This document shows positions 5,880 through 42,347 of a stretch of 44,032 nt of DNA, in pieces. The stretch's first letter is position 1. Each line of letters starts with the position of its first letter. The position numbers and the translations under genes are program-made. The stretch covers positions 1 through 44,032 of IMG/VR virus record IMGVR_UViG_3300027861_000053; one strand, written 5' to 3'. The notes beneath the pieces are model-generated. The model saw only the letters and a program-made list of their open reading frames with translations. It did not search any database and was not told where the DNA came from. This stretch comes from a virus.

Positions 5880-6305
5880 TTATATATTACAATATTCTTT
5901 ATAAGCATCAAAGCAAGGACAAGATTTCGCTGCAAATTCATTGTGACCATGTATTGTAGCTTTTGAGTGCATCTTTTTTAACGTTTTTAACAGCAGTAAC
6001 AAGCTTTCTTTTTGTTCTATTGTTCTAGTGTCTTTAGCAATCCATTTTCCGTTACGTCCTCTCTCAGCCTCTACTCCTCCAATATAACAAATTCCTATTG
6101 ATCCTTTATTGTGGTTTTTAACATGAGCTCCTTGTTCATATATATTTCTACCGTACTCTATAGTACCGTCTAGCAAAACAACATAATGATAACCTATGCC
6201 TTTCCAACCTCTTTTTAAATGCCATCGATTTATTTCAGCAGCATCTAAGTCTCTGCCTTCTTGCGTAGCAGAACAATGTACTATTAATTTATCTATTTTT
6301 CTCAT
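5880..6305 (-). CDS. N-acetylmuramoyl-L-alanine amidase (T7 lysozyme-type endolysin)
   Basis: The 141-residue protein covers a single amidase_2 domain and closely follows T7 lysozyme. H10 (VHCSAT), H121 (HGHNE) and C129 (KSCP) match the Zn ligands, while Y39 (GIGYHY) and K127 match the catalytic residues. It cleaves the bond between muramic acid and the stem peptide to burst the cell. There is no signal peptide, so it needs a holin to cross the membrane; the next gene downstream is a holin candidate. T7 lysozyme also inhibits T7 RNA polymerase; no such polymerase is in this window, so that second role cannot be assumed. It lies directly after the giant internal virion gene, with one base between. 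Confidence 0.95.
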   Translation of the reverse strand: MRKIDKLIVHCSATQEGRDLDAAEINRWHLKRGWKGIGYHYVVLLDGTIEYGRNIYEQGAHVKNHNKGSIGICYIGGVEAERGRNGKWIAKDTRTIEQKESLLLLLKTLKKMHSKATIHGHNEFAAKSCPCFDAYKEYCNI

Positions 6306-9300: not shown

Positions 9301-12300
9301 GTCTACATTTTTTTTAGATATTTCTTGTAAAAAAGCATCGTCTCTAATAGCGTTTCTAGCTTCTTGTAAAACTAAAACATCACCAAATAACTCCATCAAT
9401 GCAGTTCTTCTATCAAAATACGCTGTTGCCCATAAAGTTTTACCGGTTCTACCTTGTTCTACAGGATCAAAACTATTTAAAAGCTTTTGTTTATTACTTC
9501 CAGCTAGTCTTTCTATTATTCTAGTAGCTTCATCTAAACCAAAGTAGTTTTGTAAAAAAGAAGATACATTTAAATTTTTTACTTTTCTAGGTTTTCCATC
9601 ATCATCTGAATCTTTAAGCCTAGGAGGTAATTTTTTTATAGCATAAGTTGATTCACCTGTAACGGGATCAATAGGGTTGTTTATAACATCAAATATTAAC
9701 TTCCAGTTATCAAACATAAAGCTTTCTAAAGAAGTAGAGTTTTGAAAAGTCATTCTTCTAGCTAAAGTTTGAGATAATATGGCTAGTTTTTCTTTAAATG
9801 CTTTAAAATCTAAGTTTTCTATATTACGAGAACTTAGTATTTGTCTTTTAACCTCTGCTACAATAACTTGAGCAGGGTTTATTTGTTCAGAATAAGCTTC
9901 GTAAGTTTTTATCATACCACCTGAAGACAAACTATAAGTTCTAAAAGATTTTAAATCTTTCAACTCTTTAGCTTCAGCGTTTGTTAAGCTTTCTTTTGCC
10001 TCTAGCTCTAAACCTCTTTTTAAATCTCTTTTTTGTTTTTCTAATTGAGCTATTTCAACTTCATCTGTAGCGGTTGCTAATCTTTTGTTGACAGCTATAC
10101 TAGGGTCATTAAAATCTATAGCAAAATCTCCACCAACTGGAACACCATCTATTTCTATAGGTTTTCCATCGGAATTTACAAAACCAAAAACAGGATCTCT
10201 AAGAAGCTCTGTTAATTCATCTTGGCTTTGCTCATAAGATTGCTTTTCTTGTTCTAATATGTCATTGTCTATGTCTAGAGTTGATCCGGAAACCCTATCA
10301 TCTATCTCATCAGTAAACTCTTGAGAAGTTACGTTGCCTGTTTTAAGTGCAGCTTTCATTTTATTTCTAAGCTGAGAGTTAATCCAACCGTTTAAATTGT
10401 TGTTTTCAGTTATTAAGTCTCCATTAGCGTCTTTGTAACCTTTTTCGTCAAGAATATTTAGCTCGTTGTTTATAGAGTTAGATGGCATGTTGTTATCTTC
10501 TAACTCTTTTCTTTTAGCTTCTCTTAATTTTAAAAACTTTTTATTAAAATTTCTAATATGAGGTAGTAAAGCAAGTTGAGTATCTTGTATCATGTCCTCT
10601 GCACTATAATCAGGTAAATTACCATATAACACATAAGCCTTTTGAAGTATAGGCTTTTCATATTGTTCTAATATATCATAAAAAATTCTATCATCAGGAG
10701 ATATGTTACCCCATTTATTTTTATTATAAAAAGAATTTACAGTGTTTTTAAACTCATCATTGTTAGCTCTTGACTCTGGTTTTAAAGCAAACTTTTCATC
10801 AAAAGTGTAATTGTTTTCGCTGCTTGAATCTGTTGTTTTTTTAGTTTTAACAGGTTTTTTTGCATCAAGAATACTTTTAGTTTCTTCTTTTAAAGCTTTT
10901 TTATCTACTTCAGCACCTTTTGTTCCTAATTTTTTAAATGCTTTGTTTTTATCTAAAGACATAACTCTATTGTTCATAGATTTATTATAATCTTTTATAA
11001 AATTATAAACATCTCTACCTGAACCAAATTTAACATCTCTAACGCCTAAAAATTGTAAAACTTGTCTAAGCACGTCTGCTAATTTAGTAAAAACATCTTC
11101 ATCATATGTAACTGCACCAACATCTATAGCTTCAGAATAAAGAGTTAAAACTTCTTCCCACTGTTTACCTAATTCTGTCGATACTTTATTGTTATATTCA
11201 GACTTTGTTATTGTTCCTGCTTTTAAATCTGCTTCAATTCCAGCAATACTATTTTTATAATAGTTTATATAACCAGTAAAGTCTTTTAAAAACTTAGCAG
11301 GCAAAGCTGTTAGTTTAGAATCATCATTAGAAAGTCTTTCTTGTATTTTAAGTATTTCACCTAATAAAGATTTACCTAATAATATAGCAGCTTCAGGATC
11401 ATTTTTTATTGTTTCATAAATTAAGCCATGTAAAAATTCATGTTGTTTAACCCCTATTCTTCCACCTTTAGCGGCTTTGTCATTGTTTATTAAAACAATT
11501 TTTTTCCCATCAAAATCTATTATACTTCCGTATTGTTGTGAAGTAAAATCTGCTTTTTCAGGGGTGTAGTTTAATTCGTTTATTAAAAAATCTTTAGCTT
11601 CTTGAACAGAGTTAACTTCTTTCCATTCAGTATTAGTTATAATACCTTTTTTTATCGCAGCAGTTATTATTCCTGATTTTCTAGCAGTTAAATCATTATA
11701 ATATACTCTTTGTATTTTCTCATCTAAAGCTTTTATTCTTTCGTCTGTAGCTGCATTAAAAGATTTGTCCTCTGTTTTACGTTGATTTCTTAGTTTACCA
11801 ACTTCGTTAAGATCCCCTAGTATTTCTTCAGCAGCTTGAGCGCTTATGTCGGTAGGCATTCTATTTATGTTGTTATTAAAAGCATCTATTTCTTGTAAAA
11901 CCTGATCTGCTTCTTCTTGAGTATATATACCTTGATTAACTTGATCTGCTAATATTTTTTTAACTTTCTTTTTCTTATAAGATAACAAACTTAAGTTGTT
12001 AAATCTATCTACAGCACCCATACCTAGTAATTGCCTAGCTGATTTTTTAGCACCTTTTACAGCTACCCCAGCGCCAGGCATTATTGCACCAGCAAAAAAC
12101 GAAAGTACAGTAGTGTCTATAAAATCTTGCATAGACATAGTATCTTTCAATATTTTTTTACCAGCGGATTCATTTACTTGTTTGTTAACAACAAATGTTT
12201 CACCTGACTGCTGTATGTTTTCTTGAAAAACTTCTTTAATACCTTCACCACTTAAATTAAAAAGAGTTTTAGCGCCTGAAGCTAACTTTTGCCCAAAGCT

Positions 12301-33768: not shown

Positions 33769-34043
33769 TATTTAGATCTACCTTCAGCAAAACCTTTAAA
33801 AGTTTTTTCTTCTTTAACTTCTTTAGGTTTTTCATTTAACAAGTTCTCTTCGTTTTGTATTCTATTTAATATTTCAAAAGCATCAAATATAGCTAGCTTC
33901 TTAGTAGCTGCTGCATTTTTTAATCTATCAGCAGTTATATCCTCTCCAGAATCAACAATAGCCTCTTTAGCTACCTTTATTAATTCTTCAACTGCTACAT
34001 GCCCAGCTAGGATTATATTCTTCTTCGTTTCCTTTATATTCAT
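33768..34043 (-). CDS. Candidate terminase small subunit (91 aa)
   Basis: The 91-residue protein lies immediately before terL, shares one base with it, and is helical (AGHVAVEELIKVAKEAIVDS, then LKNAAATKKLAIFDAFEI), with a charged tail. Small terminase subunits usually occupy this place and are helical oligomers of about 100-180 residues, so this is a positional candidate. It lacks a recognisable helix-turn-helix, and is short for the family. It overlaps the upstream gene by 56 bases, which is unusual but both frames read as good protein. Alternative: an unrelated head-assembly cofactor. Confidence 0.5.
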   Translation of the reverse strand: MNIKETKKNIILAGHVAVEELIKVAKEAIVDSGEDITADRLKNAAATKKLAIFDAFEILNRIQNEENLLNEKPKEVKEEKTFKGFAEGRSK

Positions 34044-34593
34044 ACTTAATTACAATATCATTAGATTTCATACAATAAATTCTTTCTTTGTCAATCAAGA
34101 ACTCCCATTCACCACCAGGCGTGTAACCAACTAAGTCTCCTGGTGTTATTTTAAGAGCTTCTAAAGACTTATTTCCGTATTTTAATATACCAACAAGGCT
34201 TTGCTCTTTATCATTAACTAGACTGTTTGTGTTTTTTATAGGTTTTATGAAACATCTGTTATTAATAGAGTTCCAACCGTCTTTATTTTTATATAAATAT
34301 ATTTGATCTAAAGCACAAAAGTAAAGGTTTTCTTTAAAAAAAGATCTACTCTTCTTTTTCTTACCTCTAGAATCATAAAAAGTTCTAAACACATTTTGGT
34401 GTATAATTATAGTATCACCAATTTTTATGTTTGTTTTAAAAGCTAAAGGTATAGCTATAACTATAGCCTGTCTATTTACAAACTTAAAGCTTTCAACTTT
34501 ACTGTTTACAACTAAATCTTTATCTTCAACTTTAATTTTATTATTGTATTTATCACCAATTGGTTCTACAATAAAATCATACAAACTATTCAT
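33988..34593 (-). CDS. Protein with two tandem GroES-like (cpn10-like) domains
   Basis: The 201-residue protein appears to contain the cpn10 beta-barrel pattern twice. Domain 1 (about 5-101) runs from FIVEPIGDKY through AIVIAIPLAF and NIKIGDTIIIHQNV to YFCALDQIYLYK. Domain 2 (about 113-186) runs from RCFIKPI through LVGILKYGN and LKITPGDLVGYTPGG to IYCMKSNDIVIKYE. Each follows the GroES order: entry strand, turn, strand, GD-containing strand, then the closing DI-V strand. A mobile loop like that of GroES is not obvious in either copy, so it may not cap GroEL in the normal way. A canonical GroES and GroEL lie about 8 kb away. Its neighbours are small virion or packaging genes. The fold is inferred by eye. 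Confidence 0.6.
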   Translation of the reverse strand: MNSLYDFIVEPIGDKYNNKIKVEDKDLVVNSKVESFKFVNRQAIVIAIPLAFKTNIKIGDTIIIHQNVFRTFYDSRGKKKKSRSFFKENLYFCALDQIYLYKNKDGWNSINNRCFIKPIKNTNSLVNDKEQSLVGILKYGNKSLEALKITPGDLVGYTPGGEWEFLIDKERIYCMKSNDIVIKYEYKGNEEEYNPSWACSS

Positions 34594-34820
34594 TAGTATT
34601 CTAAATCATACTCAACAGATATAGCCATGTTAGAATTAAACTTCTTCCATGGCATTACCTCATTGTTTTTCTTTATATGTATATTATAAGATTTGTCAGA
34701 CTCATCTAAAAGTATATGAGAGATTTCATGTCCACCATAAACTTGTTGACCAACTGAATAATGCATTGCTTCATTTTTATAATCTGAACCAATACTTATC
34801 TTTCTAATATTATTTTTCAT
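34593..34820 (-). CDS. Small hypothetical protein (75 aa)
   Basis: A 75-residue protein with the look of a small beta-sheet domain (MHYSVGQQVYGGHEISHILL, then NIHIKKNNEVMPWKKF, ending AISVEYDLEY). It overlaps the preceding gene by 11 bases and the following one by a single base (TAATG), so translation is probably coupled. The pattern looks conserved rather than random, but I know no function. It sits upstream of the double GroES-like gene, with which it may act. Confidence 0.6.
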   Translation of the reverse strand: MKNNIRKISIGSDYKNEAMHYSVGQQVYGGHEISHILLDESDKSYNIHIKKNNEVMPWKKFNSNMAISVEYDLEY

Positions 34821-35700: not shown

Positions 35701-36099
35701 TTATTTGTTACTTATTGATTTATATTTCTCAAAACCACGCGAGCCAAAATAGGCTACATACACAGTTGTTAATAATTGTTTTAATAATTCTATCCACTCT
35801 TGCTCTACAGTAAAAGATATTTCGTGATGACTATCAACCCATATAAAAGCTATAGCCATGAAGGATAAGAATATAAGCGCCATAGGACGCGTATTTTTAC
35901 TTAACCACGAATCAGATGTCATATCCGACTCCCAGCGTTTTGTTATTTGGTCCTCTGCTGTTGCAGCTGCTTTTTCTACTATAACTTGGATTTCTTTTTT
36001 AATCTCAAGTTTTTCTTCTTCTGTAGTTGTTAGTTTATCGATAACGTCACCAACATCTTTGATAACGTTACCGCTTAACCATTCCCATATTTTTTTCAT
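35701..36099 (-). CDS. 3TM-type holin-like protein (132 aa)
   Basis: The sequence has an N-terminal charged helical region, then RWESDMTSDSWLSKN and RPMALIFLSFMAIAFIWV (first membrane span, about residues 72-89), and a second hydrophobic stretch ending in TTVYVAYFGSRGFEKYK. The motif pattern RW..DM.SDSWLSKN.RP, with YFGSRG.EK at the end, matches the holin family related to gene-transfer-agent 3TM holins (PF11351), from memory. It shares an ATGA overlap with the GldL-like gene upstream, so both are translated together. It may be the lysis holin, or act with its partner. The other holin candidate is at 5717-5869. Confidence 0.72.
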   Translation of the reverse strand: MKKIWEWLSGNVIKDVGDVIDKLTTTEEEKLEIKKEIQVIVEKAAATAEDQITKRWESDMTSDSWLSKNTRPMALIFLSFMAIAFIWVDSHHEISFTVEQEWIELLKQLLTTVYVAYFGSRGFEKYKSISNK

Positions 36100-36533
36100 T
36101 AGCCTTTCATTGCTTTTAATATTGAATAATAAGTTTTGCTCATATAAGAAGTGCGTTGAGCTAAAGAATTAGCCTCTGTATTAATTTTTATATAAGCATC
36201 AGTTGAACTTTTAATAAGTTTAAGTTGATTTTCATGAACTTTATTAATTAAAGAAATATTTTTAATAGCATCTTTAATTTCTTTAACGTATTCTTTTTGA
36301 GCATCTATAATAGTTTTAGGATTGTATGGATCAGTTTCGAGTGATTCATCTGTTTCATTTTCTGTTTTTTTATCAAACGCAGAATACGTAAACACAACAG
36401 CTTCTGTTACCATACCTATTGTCAATAATAATGAACCGCCGTTCCAATGTTGGATTTTAAACAAAGCTCCTAAAATAACAATTGCAGCTCCAATGCCGTA
36501 GAGCATATTTGTTAGACTTAAATTTTTTAACAT
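36099..36533 (-). CDS. GldL-like small membrane protein
   Basis: The first ~52 residues strongly resemble the membrane part of GldL, the subunit of the Bacteroidota gliding and type IX secretion motor. YGIGAAIVILGALFKIQHW forms TM1, then the N-G-G turn, then LLLTIGMVTEAVVFTYSAF as TM2. GldL has conserved charged residues here, and the likely equivalents K26, H29 and the membrane-embedded E44 (TEA) are present. The last ~90 residues are a helical soluble tail ending YMSKTYYSILKAMKG, reminiscent of the cytoplasmic end of GldL. At 144 residues it is shorter than the cellular protein. The partner GldM is absent. It overlaps the holin-like gene, so a membrane role is likely, but which one is inference. 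Confidence 0.75.
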   Translation of the reverse strand: MLKNLSLTNMLYGIGAAIVILGALFKIQHWNGGSLLLTIGMVTEAVVFTYSAFDKKTENETDESLETDPYNPKTIIDAQKEYVKEIKDAIKNISLINKVHENQLKLIKSSTDAYIKINTEANSLAQRTSYMSKTYYSILKAMKG

Positions 36534-36608: not shown

Positions 36609-38534
36609 TTACGCGTTAGCTTCCATTGAATTAGCTTTTAACAAATCAAATTTATTTTTACCATCAGCATCTCCTGGATTATTTGCACCAATTAGTTTAT
36701 TCATTTCTGTAGATAAACCATCAAGATCTTCTACAAAATCTAATGCTCTAGCTTCATTAAAAAACCTTCCATCCGCCGGTCCACTTATAAATCCTTTTGG
36801 TGATTTAGTAAGTATATCTCTAGTTTTTTCAAGCATCCCTGGTGTAACCGTCTCCCAAGTTCCATTATTGTTTTTAAGAATACCCAGGTCATACATTGAT
36901 TTTTTTAATTCTTGAGCATAAGCGTATGGTTCTTTGCCTTCACTACCAGTATTAAAATAACCTTGGTCTGGAGTTGAATTAGCCGCGCTTCTTTGTGATA
37001 GATTTCGTAATCTATTATCAGCATTTGAAACATCATTAATTTTGTTTAACTTATCAACATATTGACCACCGTGACCAAGTAATTCATGATACGCTGTTGA
37101 GCTTGATCCTGTTGTATTAGCACCTAAAACATAACTAGGATTTTGACCTCTATTTTTACCATTATAATAAGCGTTATCAACTAATTGAGGAAAAATTTTA
37201 GTTCCATCTCCATAAATAGCTTTAACTGCTCCGTTTGGATTATAATTACCCTGAGAATCAAAAGCTAATTCAGCCACTAATTCATTCATGCTTTTTGAGT
37301 TACTTAACTTGTCTTGGTGTTGTTTTTTAAAATAATTAATATATTTTTCTCTAGTTTTAGGAGACATGTTTGCAACTATTTCTTTGTCCTTAAACGCGTT
37401 AAGTGAAAATGGTATTTCAGTTTTACTATCAAGTGTTTCTGTAATTAAATCAGTTAATCTTTGTTGCCCTTGTTCTGATCTCATATTATTAGCAGCAAAC
37501 TCCCTAGTTTCTCTAAACGTATTAGCTCCTTTTCTTAATTCCCTTGCTAATGGTTCTAACGATCTACCTAATTCTTTATCACTTCCGAGTAGCTTTCGGT
37601 TAACCATATCAACCAAATAATTTTTTTCTGAAGTTCTTTGGGGTAATTTACTAAAATCAAAAGAAAAATCTCCAATACCTCCTACGTTATCTAGATTGTA
37701 ATCTACATTGTTGGTTCCTCTTTGAGCGTTTATTGCTTGTTGAAAAGCATCTACACCGGCGTCATCAATATTATTACCTAACGCATTACTTATTGCGTTT
37801 GCGGTAGGTTTTCCTAGTCCAGCTAAAGGGTTGACAGTATTATTTAAAACTCTTCCAGTATAATTAGCTGCCCCTTTAATTCCAGTACCAGCGCCTCCAG
37901 CTCCTATCATGCCTAGCCCAACATTAAGAGTTGCAGAAGGAACCATACCAAGACCCATTTGAGTTTTAGCTTTTAATTTGTCAGAAAACGATAAGTTTGG
38001 ATCTGTTCTCATTGTCTCTATTTCTCTAGCTAATTGTGTTGTATTTCCAGTATCAAAACCTAAAAAAGAATTAATACCCATATCACCTAAAAGTGCTGAT
38101 GGATCTGACATATAAGCTAATGGTCTTTCTAATAAACTTAATGAGGCATTATGTATTTTTTCACCTCTTTCATTATTTATTGCTGCTTGTTTTTTTTCTT
38201 GTTCTGTTACAGGGCCTTGACTAATAGTTGCTCTATTTCTGTTTTGGTTCTTCTGTATTTTTTTTTCTTTTATTTTCTTAACTTGAGCTGCGTTCTTAAT
38301 TATTTGTTCTGAAGAAACGTCGTTGTTTTGTCTAAATTTTTCTACAGCTAGATTATCTGAAACATTTTGATTTAATAACCTTTCGTCAACTACAGATTCT
38401 TTAGTAGCAAGCTTATGATTTAGTAAACCTGCAAAGTCTTTTTTACTGTGAGGTGGACCACCCTCGTGTGATTTTAAAGGACTATGATTTACACCGCCTT
38501 GTAATCTTTTAAAAAAACCTTTTTTTAGTGCCAT
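36609..38534 (-). CDS. Large virion-associated protein with HExxGH zincin motif (641 aa)
   Basis: The 641-residue protein has a basic start (MALKKGFFKRLQGGVNHSPL), a long charged coiled-coil region to about residue 125, a Gly-rich hydrophobic region around 195-230 (LGMIGAGGAGTGIKGA), and a metallopeptidase-like motif H483-E484-L-L-G-H488 (TAYHELLGHGGQYVDKL). A later acidic candidate for the third zinc ligand occurs in GKEPYAYAQELKK. HExxGH is characteristic of some zinc peptidases, such as DPP III, but the surroundings do not resemble that family; many polyvalent phage proteins carry such zincin segments. It may act on peptidoglycan or phage proteins. The 75-base gap to the next gene holds no clear structure. 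Confidence 0.68.
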   Translation of the reverse strand: MALKKGFFKRLQGGVNHSPLKSHEGGPPHSKKDFAGLLNHKLATKESVVDERLLNQNVSDNLAVEKFRQNNDVSSEQIIKNAAQVKKIKEKKIQKNQNRNRATISQGPVTEQEKKQAAINNERGEKIHNASLSLLERPLAYMSDPSALLGDMGINSFLGFDTGNTTQLAREIETMRTDPNLSFSDKLKAKTQMGLGMVPSATLNVGLGMIGAGGAGTGIKGAANYTGRVLNNTVNPLAGLGKPTANAISNALGNNIDDAGVDAFQQAINAQRGTNNVDYNLDNVGGIGDFSFDFSKLPQRTSEKNYLVDMVNRKLLGSDKELGRSLEPLARELRKGANTFRETREFAANNMRSEQGQQRLTDLITETLDSKTEIPFSLNAFKDKEIVANMSPKTREKYINYFKKQHQDKLSNSKSMNELVAELAFDSQGNYNPNGAVKAIYGDGTKIFPQLVDNAYYNGKNRGQNPSYVLGANTTGSSSTAYHELLGHGGQYVDKLNKINDVSNADNRLRNLSQRSAANSTPDQGYFNTGSEGKEPYAYAQELKKSMYDLGILKNNNGTWETVTPGMLEKTRDILTKSPKGFISGPADGRFFNEARALDFVEDLDGLSTEMNKLIGANNPGDADGKNKFDLLKANSMEANA

Positions 38535-38536
38535 AT

Positions 38537-38863
38537 CTATGCGTTTTTAGCTTCGTTGTAGGCTTCTTTTTCCCAAGGTAAATTCTTAGCGCCTTCTTTC
38601 ATTGAAGATCTTGGGTATTCTTTGCCCTTCCAAAATACTGTATCATCATCATAATTTAAGTCTCCACGCTTTATTTGGTTCACATGAACCATCTCGTGAT
38701 CTACTACGTCTTGAATTTTATTAGGGTCTTTAATATCTTTATTAACTAGTATACCGCCTTTGTTTGTGGCCATTCCTAGTGTATTTTCATCCATATCAAC
38801 ATGTAATATAGGAGTATTTAATGTGCACTCACAGTACGGTGCCCCTTTCATTTTAAATGCCAT
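38537..38863 (-). CDS. Small zincin-like metallopeptidase protein (108 aa)
   Basis: This short protein has H56-E57-x-x-H60 in VVDHEMVHVNQIKRGDLNYD, with a third acidic ligand probably at E98 or E100 in PWEKEAYNEA; this is the order of a gluzincin. Only one small domain is present. I chose the start at 38863 (MAFKMKGAP) over the ATG at 38890 because the latter lies inside a hairpin terminator. It follows the 141-residue virion-like gene and is three bases before the 641-residue gene, which also has a zincin motif. Proteolysis of virion proteins or of host targets is possible; the substrate is unknown. Confidence 0.7.
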   Translation of the reverse strand: MAFKMKGAPYCECTLNTPILHVDMDENTLGMATNKGGILVNKDIKDPNKIQDVVDHEMVHVNQIKRGDLNYDDDTVFWKGKEYPRSSMKEGAKNLPWEKEAYNEAKNA

Positions 38864-41643: not shown

Positions 41644-42090
41644 TTATCTGTATTTATCTTTATTGACATTATAAATAGCTTTTGTCAGTACTTTATCTGT
41701 ATAACTGTTACCATTTATTATTTTATTTCTTCTTTTACTTATAGGTAAATCTTCATCACCTAACATTATCCTATATATCCTATTTATTAATTGCTTAAAT
41801 TTAAAAGATACAGCATATATATTATATTTTTGTGTTGTTCTATTTCTATTTCTCCAAACAACTATCCATTCGTTTTTAAGCAATCGATTCCAACGGCGGT
41901 TATCCCAACTATAGGAATAACTACCGGTTTTGAAATCTTGCTTAGAAAAGTGTTCTATAGATTCTAAATATATTAAAAGTTCTAAATCAGCGTCATTTAA
42001 GTCATTGTTTTTACAAGCCCACTTGCGTATTATACGGTAGTGTTTTAGCAGTTTAAGATTTTTTAAGTCCTCTGCGTCTAGCTTTCTCAT
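41644..42090 (-). CDS. Winged-helix-like basic DNA-binding candidate (148 aa)
   Basis: Residues 1-50 form a short helical stretch (LKHYRIIRKWACKNNDLNDA, DLELLIYLESIEHFSK), and residues 60-100 give a typical wing-like turn with aromatic and basic residues (WRNRNRTTQKYNIYAVSFK). The layout, helices then a turn and strand, resembles a MarR-like winged helix. It shares four bases (ATGA) with groES, so it is probably translated with the chaperonin genes. It may be a late-gene regulator. The fold call is by eye and moderate at best; alternatives include a small nucleic-acid-binding virion protein. Confidence 0.5.
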   Translation of the reverse strand: MRKLDAEDLKNLKLLKHYRIIRKWACKNNDLNDADLELLIYLESIEHFSKQDFKTGSYSYSWDNRRWNRLLKNEWIVVWRNRNRTTQKYNIYAVSFKFKQLINRIYRIMLGDEDLPISKRRNKIINGNSYTDKVLTKAIYNVNKDKYR

Positions 42091-42347
42091 AAAACAACAA
42101 CCACATCTTGTGATTTAATAACGTGATAAGTTAAATCTCCCACCTCTATTTTATGCCCAGCATGTCTATCAAAAAATATAGTGTCAGACTGTTTTAAGCC
42201 TTCAACTTCATTACCAATAGAAATAACTTTTGCTTTTATGTATCTAATGTCTTCTCTATGTGTTTCCGCTAGAATTAAACCACCTTTTGTTTCAGTGGTT
42301 ACATTTTTTTCTTTTTGTATTATTAAATTTCTACCTATTGCTTTCAT
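42087..42347 (-). CDS. groES: Co-chaperonin GroES (cpn10)
   Basis: The 86-residue protein follows the GroES fold from end to end: strand AIGRNLIIQKE, the mobile-loop region (NVTTETKGGLILAETHREDI) containing GGLIL as in cellular GroES, then IKAKVISIGNEV, the strand around SDTIFFDRHAG, and the closing strand HVIKSQDVVVVL. GroES rings cap the GroEL cavity and release folded substrate. It lies immediately downstream of groEL, and its start overlaps the end of groEL by 17 bases, the reverse of the usual cellular groES-groEL order. A phage-specific GroES probably pairs with the phage GroEL to fold the capsid or another virion protein. Confidence is high. Confidence 0.93.
   Translation of the reverse strand: MKAIGRNLIIQKEKNVTTETKGGLILAETHREDIRYIKAKVISIGNEVEGLKQSDTIFFDRHAGHKIEVGDLTYHVIKSQDVVVVL

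Follow-up and report, generated by a model that had tools for sequence, protein, structure and literature searches.

Why does one phage carry two adjacent genes with different zinc-peptidase motifs, and do their products work as a pair? The question arises from positions 36609 to 38863 of IMG/VR virus record IMGVR_UViG_3300027861_000053; the whole stretch that was analysed, 44,032 nucleotides (nt), is called the window here. On its minus strand, a gene for a protein of 108 residues (Z108) is followed by one for a protein of 641 residues, and the first-pass annotation, made by a model from the sequence, had suggested that these neighbours may act together. As judged by comparison with related loci, Z108 is a small protein of the gluzincin type whose site is intact, and its gene is constant in a group of flavobacterial podophages; the 641-residue gene is one of several alleles found in a hypervariable slot, 2 nt downstream of Z108. 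The parts of the two genes are as follows.

38537..38863, minus strand: Z108, a minigluzincin-like protein of 108 residues (37 relatives in viral contigs; AlphaFold predicted local distance difference test score, pLDDT, 79.5; predicted template modelling score, pTM, 0.68)
38684..38698, minus strand: HEMVH, residues 56-60 of Z108, the predicted active-site helix (H56, E57 and H60 invariant in 24/24 rows; helix 47-66 in the model)
38570..38572, minus strand: Glu98 in LPWEKEAY of Z108, the proposed third zinc ligand (W97 and E98 invariant in 24/24 rows; helix 96-107 in the model)
36609..38534, minus strand: the 641-residue slot protein, HExxxH type (same type in loci L001-L004 and L050/L056)
38460..38534, minus strand: the leader, codons 1-25 of the 641-residue gene (12/25 positions identical in 14/14 slot genes)
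37071..37088, minus strand: HELLGH, residues 483-488 of the 641-residue protein (HELLGH, HELVGH, HETQH or HEIQH in homologues)
36930..36932, minus strand: Glu535 in KEPYAY of the 641-residue protein, the proposed third zinc ligand (invariant in 12/12 rows)
36636..36662, minus strand: C-terminal motif GKNKFDLLK, residues 625-633 of the 641-residue protein (similar motif in 19 distinct slot-gene C-termini)

A constant gene and its exchanged neighbour

The gene after Z108 varies between phages with close flanks, and the genes on either side of it keep a largely fixed order. In seven of ten related loci, DNA homology to the window ends inside codons 19-25 of the 641-residue gene and a different body then follows. 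The break lies at window position 38479 in L005, L006, L007 and L062, at 38473 in L063, and at 38460 in L008 and L065; up to it, L005 and L006 share 388 bases with the window at 96% identity and L007 shares 1018 bases at 91%. Loci with the same occupant type are homologous throughout (L001, L002) or to position 37729 (L056). The counts of slot, leader and third-gene loci refer to distinct contigs, many of them close relatives, and thus do not represent independent events; four of the loci (L048, L052, L061, L070) are cut off at contig ends. The ratio of nonsynonymous to synonymous substitution rates (dN/dS) is 0.37-0.70 for the slot protein, whose isoelectric point is 9.0, versus 0.09 for Z108 in two comparisons in which dS is saturated.

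Exchange after Z108 is also seen in another clade, where L016 and L017 have flanks that are 95-98% identical and differ in the gene (L016:6585-7856, L017:6585-7384) that follows Z108 and a secreted-looking protein. The replaced genes share a different N-terminus, PGR..(F/Y)..TG(H/Y)GLPS, which suggests a second leader type. A slot gene of L061 (L061:5995-6213) runs into a stop codon after only 72 residues, roughly 100 bases short of the end of the contig, and is possibly a broken copy.

In 31 of 31 loci selected for having a slot gene, its start lies close to the Z108 stop codon, either 2 nt after it (23), in a 1-nt overlap (7) or in an 11-nt overlap (1); elsewhere, Z108 precedes other genes at other distances. 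The neighbours are therefore probably translated together, and to this extent the earlier suggestion stands. What finds no support is the idea of a fixed pair, as the second gene is exchanged. Because Z108 is constant and the gene that follows is not, the two are not a dedicated two-enzyme machine, and Z108 at most acts on, or with, whatever bears the leader. A duplicated pair was also considered and rejected, as no relation was found between Z108 and the 641 type (hhalign probability 0.4%; BLASTP against the 641-residue protein, E 16) or other slot occupants (hhalign, 2.9%); given that so few residues were compared, a distant kinship may still exist.

Both genes have the lengths and motifs first annotated, in minus-strand open reading frames (ORFs) that are 2 nt apart. 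The longest ORF at Z108 has 117 residues from a TTG, and the 108 residues are counted from an ATG. In the 39 window proteins taken (14,035 residues), HExxH occurs three times versus 0.125 times in shuffled sequences, a count reached in 1 of 2000 shuffles, and HExxxH occurs once versus 0.136 times (P 0.13), so that HELLGH by itself is not beyond chance. The motifs of both proteins are credible because each is conserved together with a downstream Glu. A lack of conservation in relatives had been named as an outcome that would refute the motifs, and the opposite was seen: H56, E57, H60, W97 and E98 of Z108 are invariant in 24 of 24 rows (the window, 22 fetched loci chosen against near-copies, and Tenacibaculum phage pT24), and all 12 rows chosen as HExxH or HExxxH occupants keep H483/E484 and Glu535 of the slot protein. 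By its sequence, the 641-residue protein thus has the conserved zincin-site pattern of HExxH or HExxxH with a downstream Glu. A second HExxH protein (L016:9142-9501), only 17% identical, was dropped from later counts as non-homologous.

The fold prediction proposed in the first-pass annotation agrees with this for Z108: in the AlphaFold model, HExxH and the downstream Glu98 lie on two predicted helices, which is the gluzincin pattern. Together with the conserved HExxH, W and E residues and the low dN/dS, the helix model indicates that Z108 is a small protein of the zincin type, under constraint and with its site intact. Its closest structural neighbour is IrrE (3dte; VIA Z 6.7, a middling value below 8; root-mean-square deviation 3.8; 83 aligned residues); IrrE entries score Z 6.7 and 6.6, and the other top rows are mostly zinc peptidases. 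Foldseek matches to the PDB are weak (best E 0.19). Among viral models, 13 matches reach E <= 0.001, of which three are SprT-like and one comes from Tenacibaculum phage pT24; IrrE-like names appear only from E 0.013 on. Membership of a curated IrrE/ImmA (M78) or SprT family was rejected, as no match to either was found in Pfam up to E 1, where only Peptidase_M76 appeared, below its cutoff, or in NCBIfam, which gave nothing up to E 0.1. Thus Z108 resembles the small SprT-like and IrrE-like zincins of phages in its viral-model matches, and pT24 shares its HExxH...WE pattern, but it differs from them in its 108 residues, in the lack of a Pfam domain at cutoff, and in a conserved N-terminus, MAFKMKGAPY. 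Here A2, F3, K4, M5 and P9 each reach at least 90% conservation across 23 rows, despite which residues 1-11 are disordered in the model.

Matches to Z108 extend to four phage records. In L020, L021 and L022, it forms a fusion with a long protein that is rich in lysine and contains KMKxSP-like motifs (as read in L020, L020:3928-5346), and the C-terminal SAFKMKG of the L020 fusion resembles the N-terminus of free Z108. Contigs from three metagenome-assembled genomes, L079 (Bacteroidetes), L080 (Woesearchaeota) and L081 (Aliivibrio), have the same phage gene order around Z108; in the latter two, a phage contig was probably assigned to the wrong organism during binning.

Perhaps Z108 is a prohead or maturation protease, for which the leader, and possibly the C-terminal motif, of the slot protein would be cleavage sites. 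Its conservation would fit such a role, and so would its coupling to the slot gene in all 31 loci chosen for having one and the fact that no prohead protease was recognised among four head genes scanned, although head genes were scanned in part only. Nevertheless, Z108 persists where the leader is absent, and prohead proteases are not known to be zincins. We consider this explanation quite improbable.

The leader and the bodies behind it

What is shared between slot genes is mainly their first 25 codons. In 14 slot genes, the ratio of nonsynonymous to synonymous differences per site (pN/pS) is 0.28 in codons 2-19 (pS 0.40) and 0.30 in codons 20-25 (pS 0.77); in the first block, codons 2-9, it is 0.43, with pS 0.27. 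In codons 26-80, where the bodies no longer align, it rises to 1.09-1.19. The low values therefore mean that the leader is kept as a peptide and is not merely recently copied DNA; on this codon evidence, it is under purifying selection. The leader was present once per record in eight of eight phage records searched, none of which carries a tandem form, and both slot genes of the tandem in L008 bear a version of it. Among the 2140 ORFs of the fetched loci, it occurs only in slot genes (next matches, E 0.47 and 0.82), where it precedes zincin-like bodies and others (L069, L071). When the 641 type is compared with other occupants (A2 versus A6), hhalign aligns the leader only. This leader is found in 24 of the 31 slot loci; the other seven (L024, L026, L029, L030, L032, L033, L034) have a shorter N-terminus, which begins M(A/S)FK(I/L)K in the six that were aligned (L030 being outside that alignment). 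Every carrier of the leader that was found is an uncultured contig.

A short conserved N-terminus on variable bodies is also a feature of the internal proteins of phage T4, which have capsid-targeting sequences. In PMC9026906, the first 10 residues of IPIII are reported to suffice for packaging, and internal proteins are said to vary between phages. The slot leader is longer and of another sequence, and its bodies are zincin-like, many with a C-terminal motif. By analogy, we tentatively favour, at slightly less than an even chance, the reading that the leader is a tag that puts a swapped effector, probably a protease, into the virion, to be delivered with the DNA.

The bodies are mostly zincin-like, with HExxH, HExxxH (as in the window) or EExxH sites, and some have none. 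In 641-type relatives, HELLGH, HELVGH, HETQH or HEIQH stands at the same place and is followed by GGQ, and a downstream Glu in EPxA(F/Y) is present in every printed homologue, in a printout that repeats some contigs. Since some of these homologues have a plain HExxH, the HExxxH form is a one-residue variant within one family. Other occupants have HELTH, HELLH, HEILH, HEDTH or HEIGH, and those of L069, L071 and L035 lack a zincin motif. In the first slot genes of L024, L029, L032, L033 and L034, the first His is swapped for Glu. No Pfam domain was found at cutoff in the 641-residue protein or in nine slot proteins scanned from other loci, and the predicted model of the 641-residue protein is too poor to use (pLDDT 45.4, pTM 0.27). 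Towards the other end, a GKxKFDxLK-like motif lies at most 40 residues from the end in 19 distinct slot-gene C-termini, two of them from proteins without a zincin motif. A pattern for it, written by eye from these same proteins, has one match outside slot genes among the 2140 ORFs.

HELLGH is the metal-binding motif of dipeptidyl peptidase III (M49), with which the 641-residue protein shares all six letters. Membership of this family was rejected, as the protein has no Pfam match up to E 1 and no sequence match to such an enzyme in the PDB, and its homologues have a plain HExxH. According to Iyer et al. 2017 (PMC5512222), the MPTase zincins of phage polyvalent proteins include an HEXXXH set with one extra residue. 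The chemistry of the site is thus not new, and the slot proteins resemble these domains in being zincin-like phage proteins with HEXXXH forms. In contrast to them, slot zincins are separate genes behind a leader and not parts of giant multidomain proteins; the 641-residue protein was not accepted as such an MPTase, as it has no Pfam domain at cutoff.

The same architecture might instead belong to a variable surface component of the fibre or receptor type, whose N-terminus would dock outside the virion and whose zincin-like body would contact the envelope and bind or cut surface proteins. Receptor-binding proteins usually combine a conserved N-terminal anchor with a swapped body, which is the pattern seen here. 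Residues 1-26 of a crassvirus tail fibre protein sit in a docking hub, according to PMC10172136. Furthermore, tail-fibre genes lie upstream of the terminase in the related isolate phi46:3, and the product of the third cassette gene either works in the envelope (GldL) or has the look of a secreted protein. By contrast, no fibre or chaperone domain was found in the nine slot proteins scanned or in that of the window, and a C-terminal motif common to several occupants is unusual for fibres. Overall, a surface component seems unlikely, with a chance that is still appreciable.

The third gene and the rest of the window

The window belongs to a flavobacterial podophage, with a terminase that shares 64% identity with that of the environmental podovirus MW202828 and 45% with those of Flavobacterium elemo phages, and a portal that shares 32% with that of Cellulophaga phage phi38:1. 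On the minus strand, the order is groEL, a groES-like gene, small genes, Z108, the 641-residue gene, a GldL-like gene, a holin-like gene, small genes, terminase and portal. The remaining features are as follows.

36099..36533, minus strand: mini-GldL, 144 residues, a homologue of the type IX secretion/gliding motor protein (PF22827; TIGR03513; PDB 7sau)
35701..36099, minus strand: holin-like protein at the end of the cassette (phrog_3427 holin, E 1.4e-24; GTA_holin_3TM below cutoff)
34593..34820, minus strand: 75-residue gene with a decoy HEISH, not a zincin (motif intact in 17/30 distinct homologues)
33988-34593, minus strand: GroES-like protein (phrog_13932) that adjoins the terminase, additional to groEL
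42087-42347: groES-like gene, matching the annotated chaperonin 10 kd subunit of MW202828
6307..14241, minus strand: giant protein of 2644 residues with HEFLH at residues 934-938 (about 11428-11442); no Pfam match up to E 0.1
5880-6305: amidase_2 endolysin of the window (profile matches)

The 144-residue protein reaches the NCBIfam equivalog level for GldL (TIGR03513, 87.8 bits versus a cutoff of 68.3) and matches PF22827 (E 3.8e-23) and five PDB GldL sequences (7sau, E 4.6e-16), which on sequence grounds makes it a GldL. The two-helix domain gives a strong match; by a hand count on the alignment, Glu44 corresponds to residue 49 of 6ys8 GldL, and in PMC12239597 this residue is said to pair with Arg9 of GldM. 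Compared with the PDB chains of GldL (212-309 residues), mini-GldL is shorter and is phage-encoded, between the protease slot and the holin. Its dN/dS is 0.17-0.32 in three comparisons. A GldL homologue occurs in 11 viral-contig loci, and a GldL follows occupants of the 641/678 type in 11 of 11 loci, including the window. For comparison, a sample of one bacterial class has a GldL match in 276 of 295 genomes. In a phage collection of 50,697 records, the single match was MT839621 (locus L083), an unannotated "bacteriophage" record whose reading frames resemble a bacterial type IX operon (GldK/L/M/N-like by inspection); because it looks bacterial, it was not counted as phage. Among the literature matches listed, no phage GldL appears in the titles or abstract starts.

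Other leader loci have something else in this place. Of the 15 that reach far enough, 14 encode a small protein that looks secreted or like a lipoprotein precursor, with signal-peptide-like starts judged by eye, and L035 does not. Where read, the small proteins between slot gene and holin (L005, L006, L008, L009, L062-L071) have 126-141 residues; they possibly serve superinfection exclusion. That of L066 is a DUF6705 protein above cutoff.

It could be imagined that each cassette combines a cargo with its partner, the swapped small envelope protein (mini-GldL or secreted-looking) protecting the producing cell from its neighbour or cooperating with it. This would account for the association of 641/678 types with GldL and of nearly all other leader loci with a signal-peptide-like protein, and for the divergence of the secreted-looking protein in L016/L017 where the neighbouring gene is replaced. 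However, L035 lacks such a gene, related phages were counted apart, and the linkage is weakened by the adjacency of the genes, as one recombination event moves both. We regard this proposal as highly improbable.

The holin-like gene at the end of the cassette raises the alternative of a lysis module, in which Z108 and the slot zincin would be cell-wall or envelope peptidases working with the adjoining holin. In related phages, the equivalent region does encode an M15-type peptidase or an endolysin, and a small secreted-looking or membrane protein lies in between in most leader loci. Nevertheless, the window has its own amidase_2 endolysin, fast swapping would be odd for a housekeeping lysis enzyme, and no wall-binding domain was matched. 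A lysis module is therefore rather improbable.

As for other zincin motifs, the first-pass annotation counted three such proteins in the phage. The HEFLH of the giant protein, at residue 934, is indeed present, but the count left out one further HExxH, the HEISH of the 75-residue gene. The latter was rejected as a zincin: since 13 of the 30 distinct homologues have a broken version, HEISH does not qualify as a metal motif. No PADLOC defence family was found for the six proteins scanned.

Proposed delivery with the DNA and its consequences

If the leader is a virion tag, as we tentatively prefer, it would target or dock the occupant into the virion, and the body would be an effector that changes rapidly, probably a protease, and that enters the host along with the DNA. 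The action of Z108 would fall late in infection, where it possibly trims or accompanies the tagged protein. Mini-GldL would associate with the GldLM motor of the host and disturb both type IX secretion and gliding, which could, for example, exclude competing phages. The leader makes a link to the virion possible, and the neighbourhood, with its secreted or membrane proteins and holin, makes a link to the envelope possible.

Several observations weigh against this reading. In the phage collection, there is no match to the slot protein, nor to the leader beyond chance (E 6 and more), and the boundary of the leader might partly reflect a favoured site of recombination. Z108 is present where the leader is absent (L010, L012, L018, L036 and others), and its role therefore extends beyond this slot. 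Among a second 12 rows of occupants, 5 have EExxH, with the Glu, the second His and the downstream Glu kept; by their sequence, these occupants may lack activity, so that a binding role fits as well as a cutting one. Several occupants have no C-terminal motif, namely those of L007/L047 and L069/L071, the 484-residue protein of L008 and the products of the second slot genes of L024, L026, L032 and L033. Finally, the linkage of mini-GldL to the 641/678 type may be mere adjacency.

In a wider form, the locus would be a plug-in cassette: Z108 would mature or load any leader-bearing protein, many of them also with the C-terminal motif; the exchanged effectors would be zincins with HExxH, HExxxH or EExxH sites; and most would be accompanied by a partner in the envelope, in this case a viral GldL that would seize the host type IX secretion/gliding motor. 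We consider this wider scheme quite improbable. The combination of leader-tagged, swapped, stand-alone zincins with a constant zincin and a phage GldL is absent among the literature matches listed.

If the leader is a targeting tag, it would offer a sequence-only handle for finding the proteins that uncultured aquatic phages deliver or display, and it could send chosen proteins into the particles of these phages. The swapped zincins would provide a new reservoir of phage proteases. It is known that hosts escape phages through mutations in genes of the gliding/type IX motor; for Flavobacteria, PMC13288928 reports phage resistance from mutations in gliding genes. A GldL encoded by a phage would show directly that phages, for their part, manipulate the type IX secretion/gliding motor.

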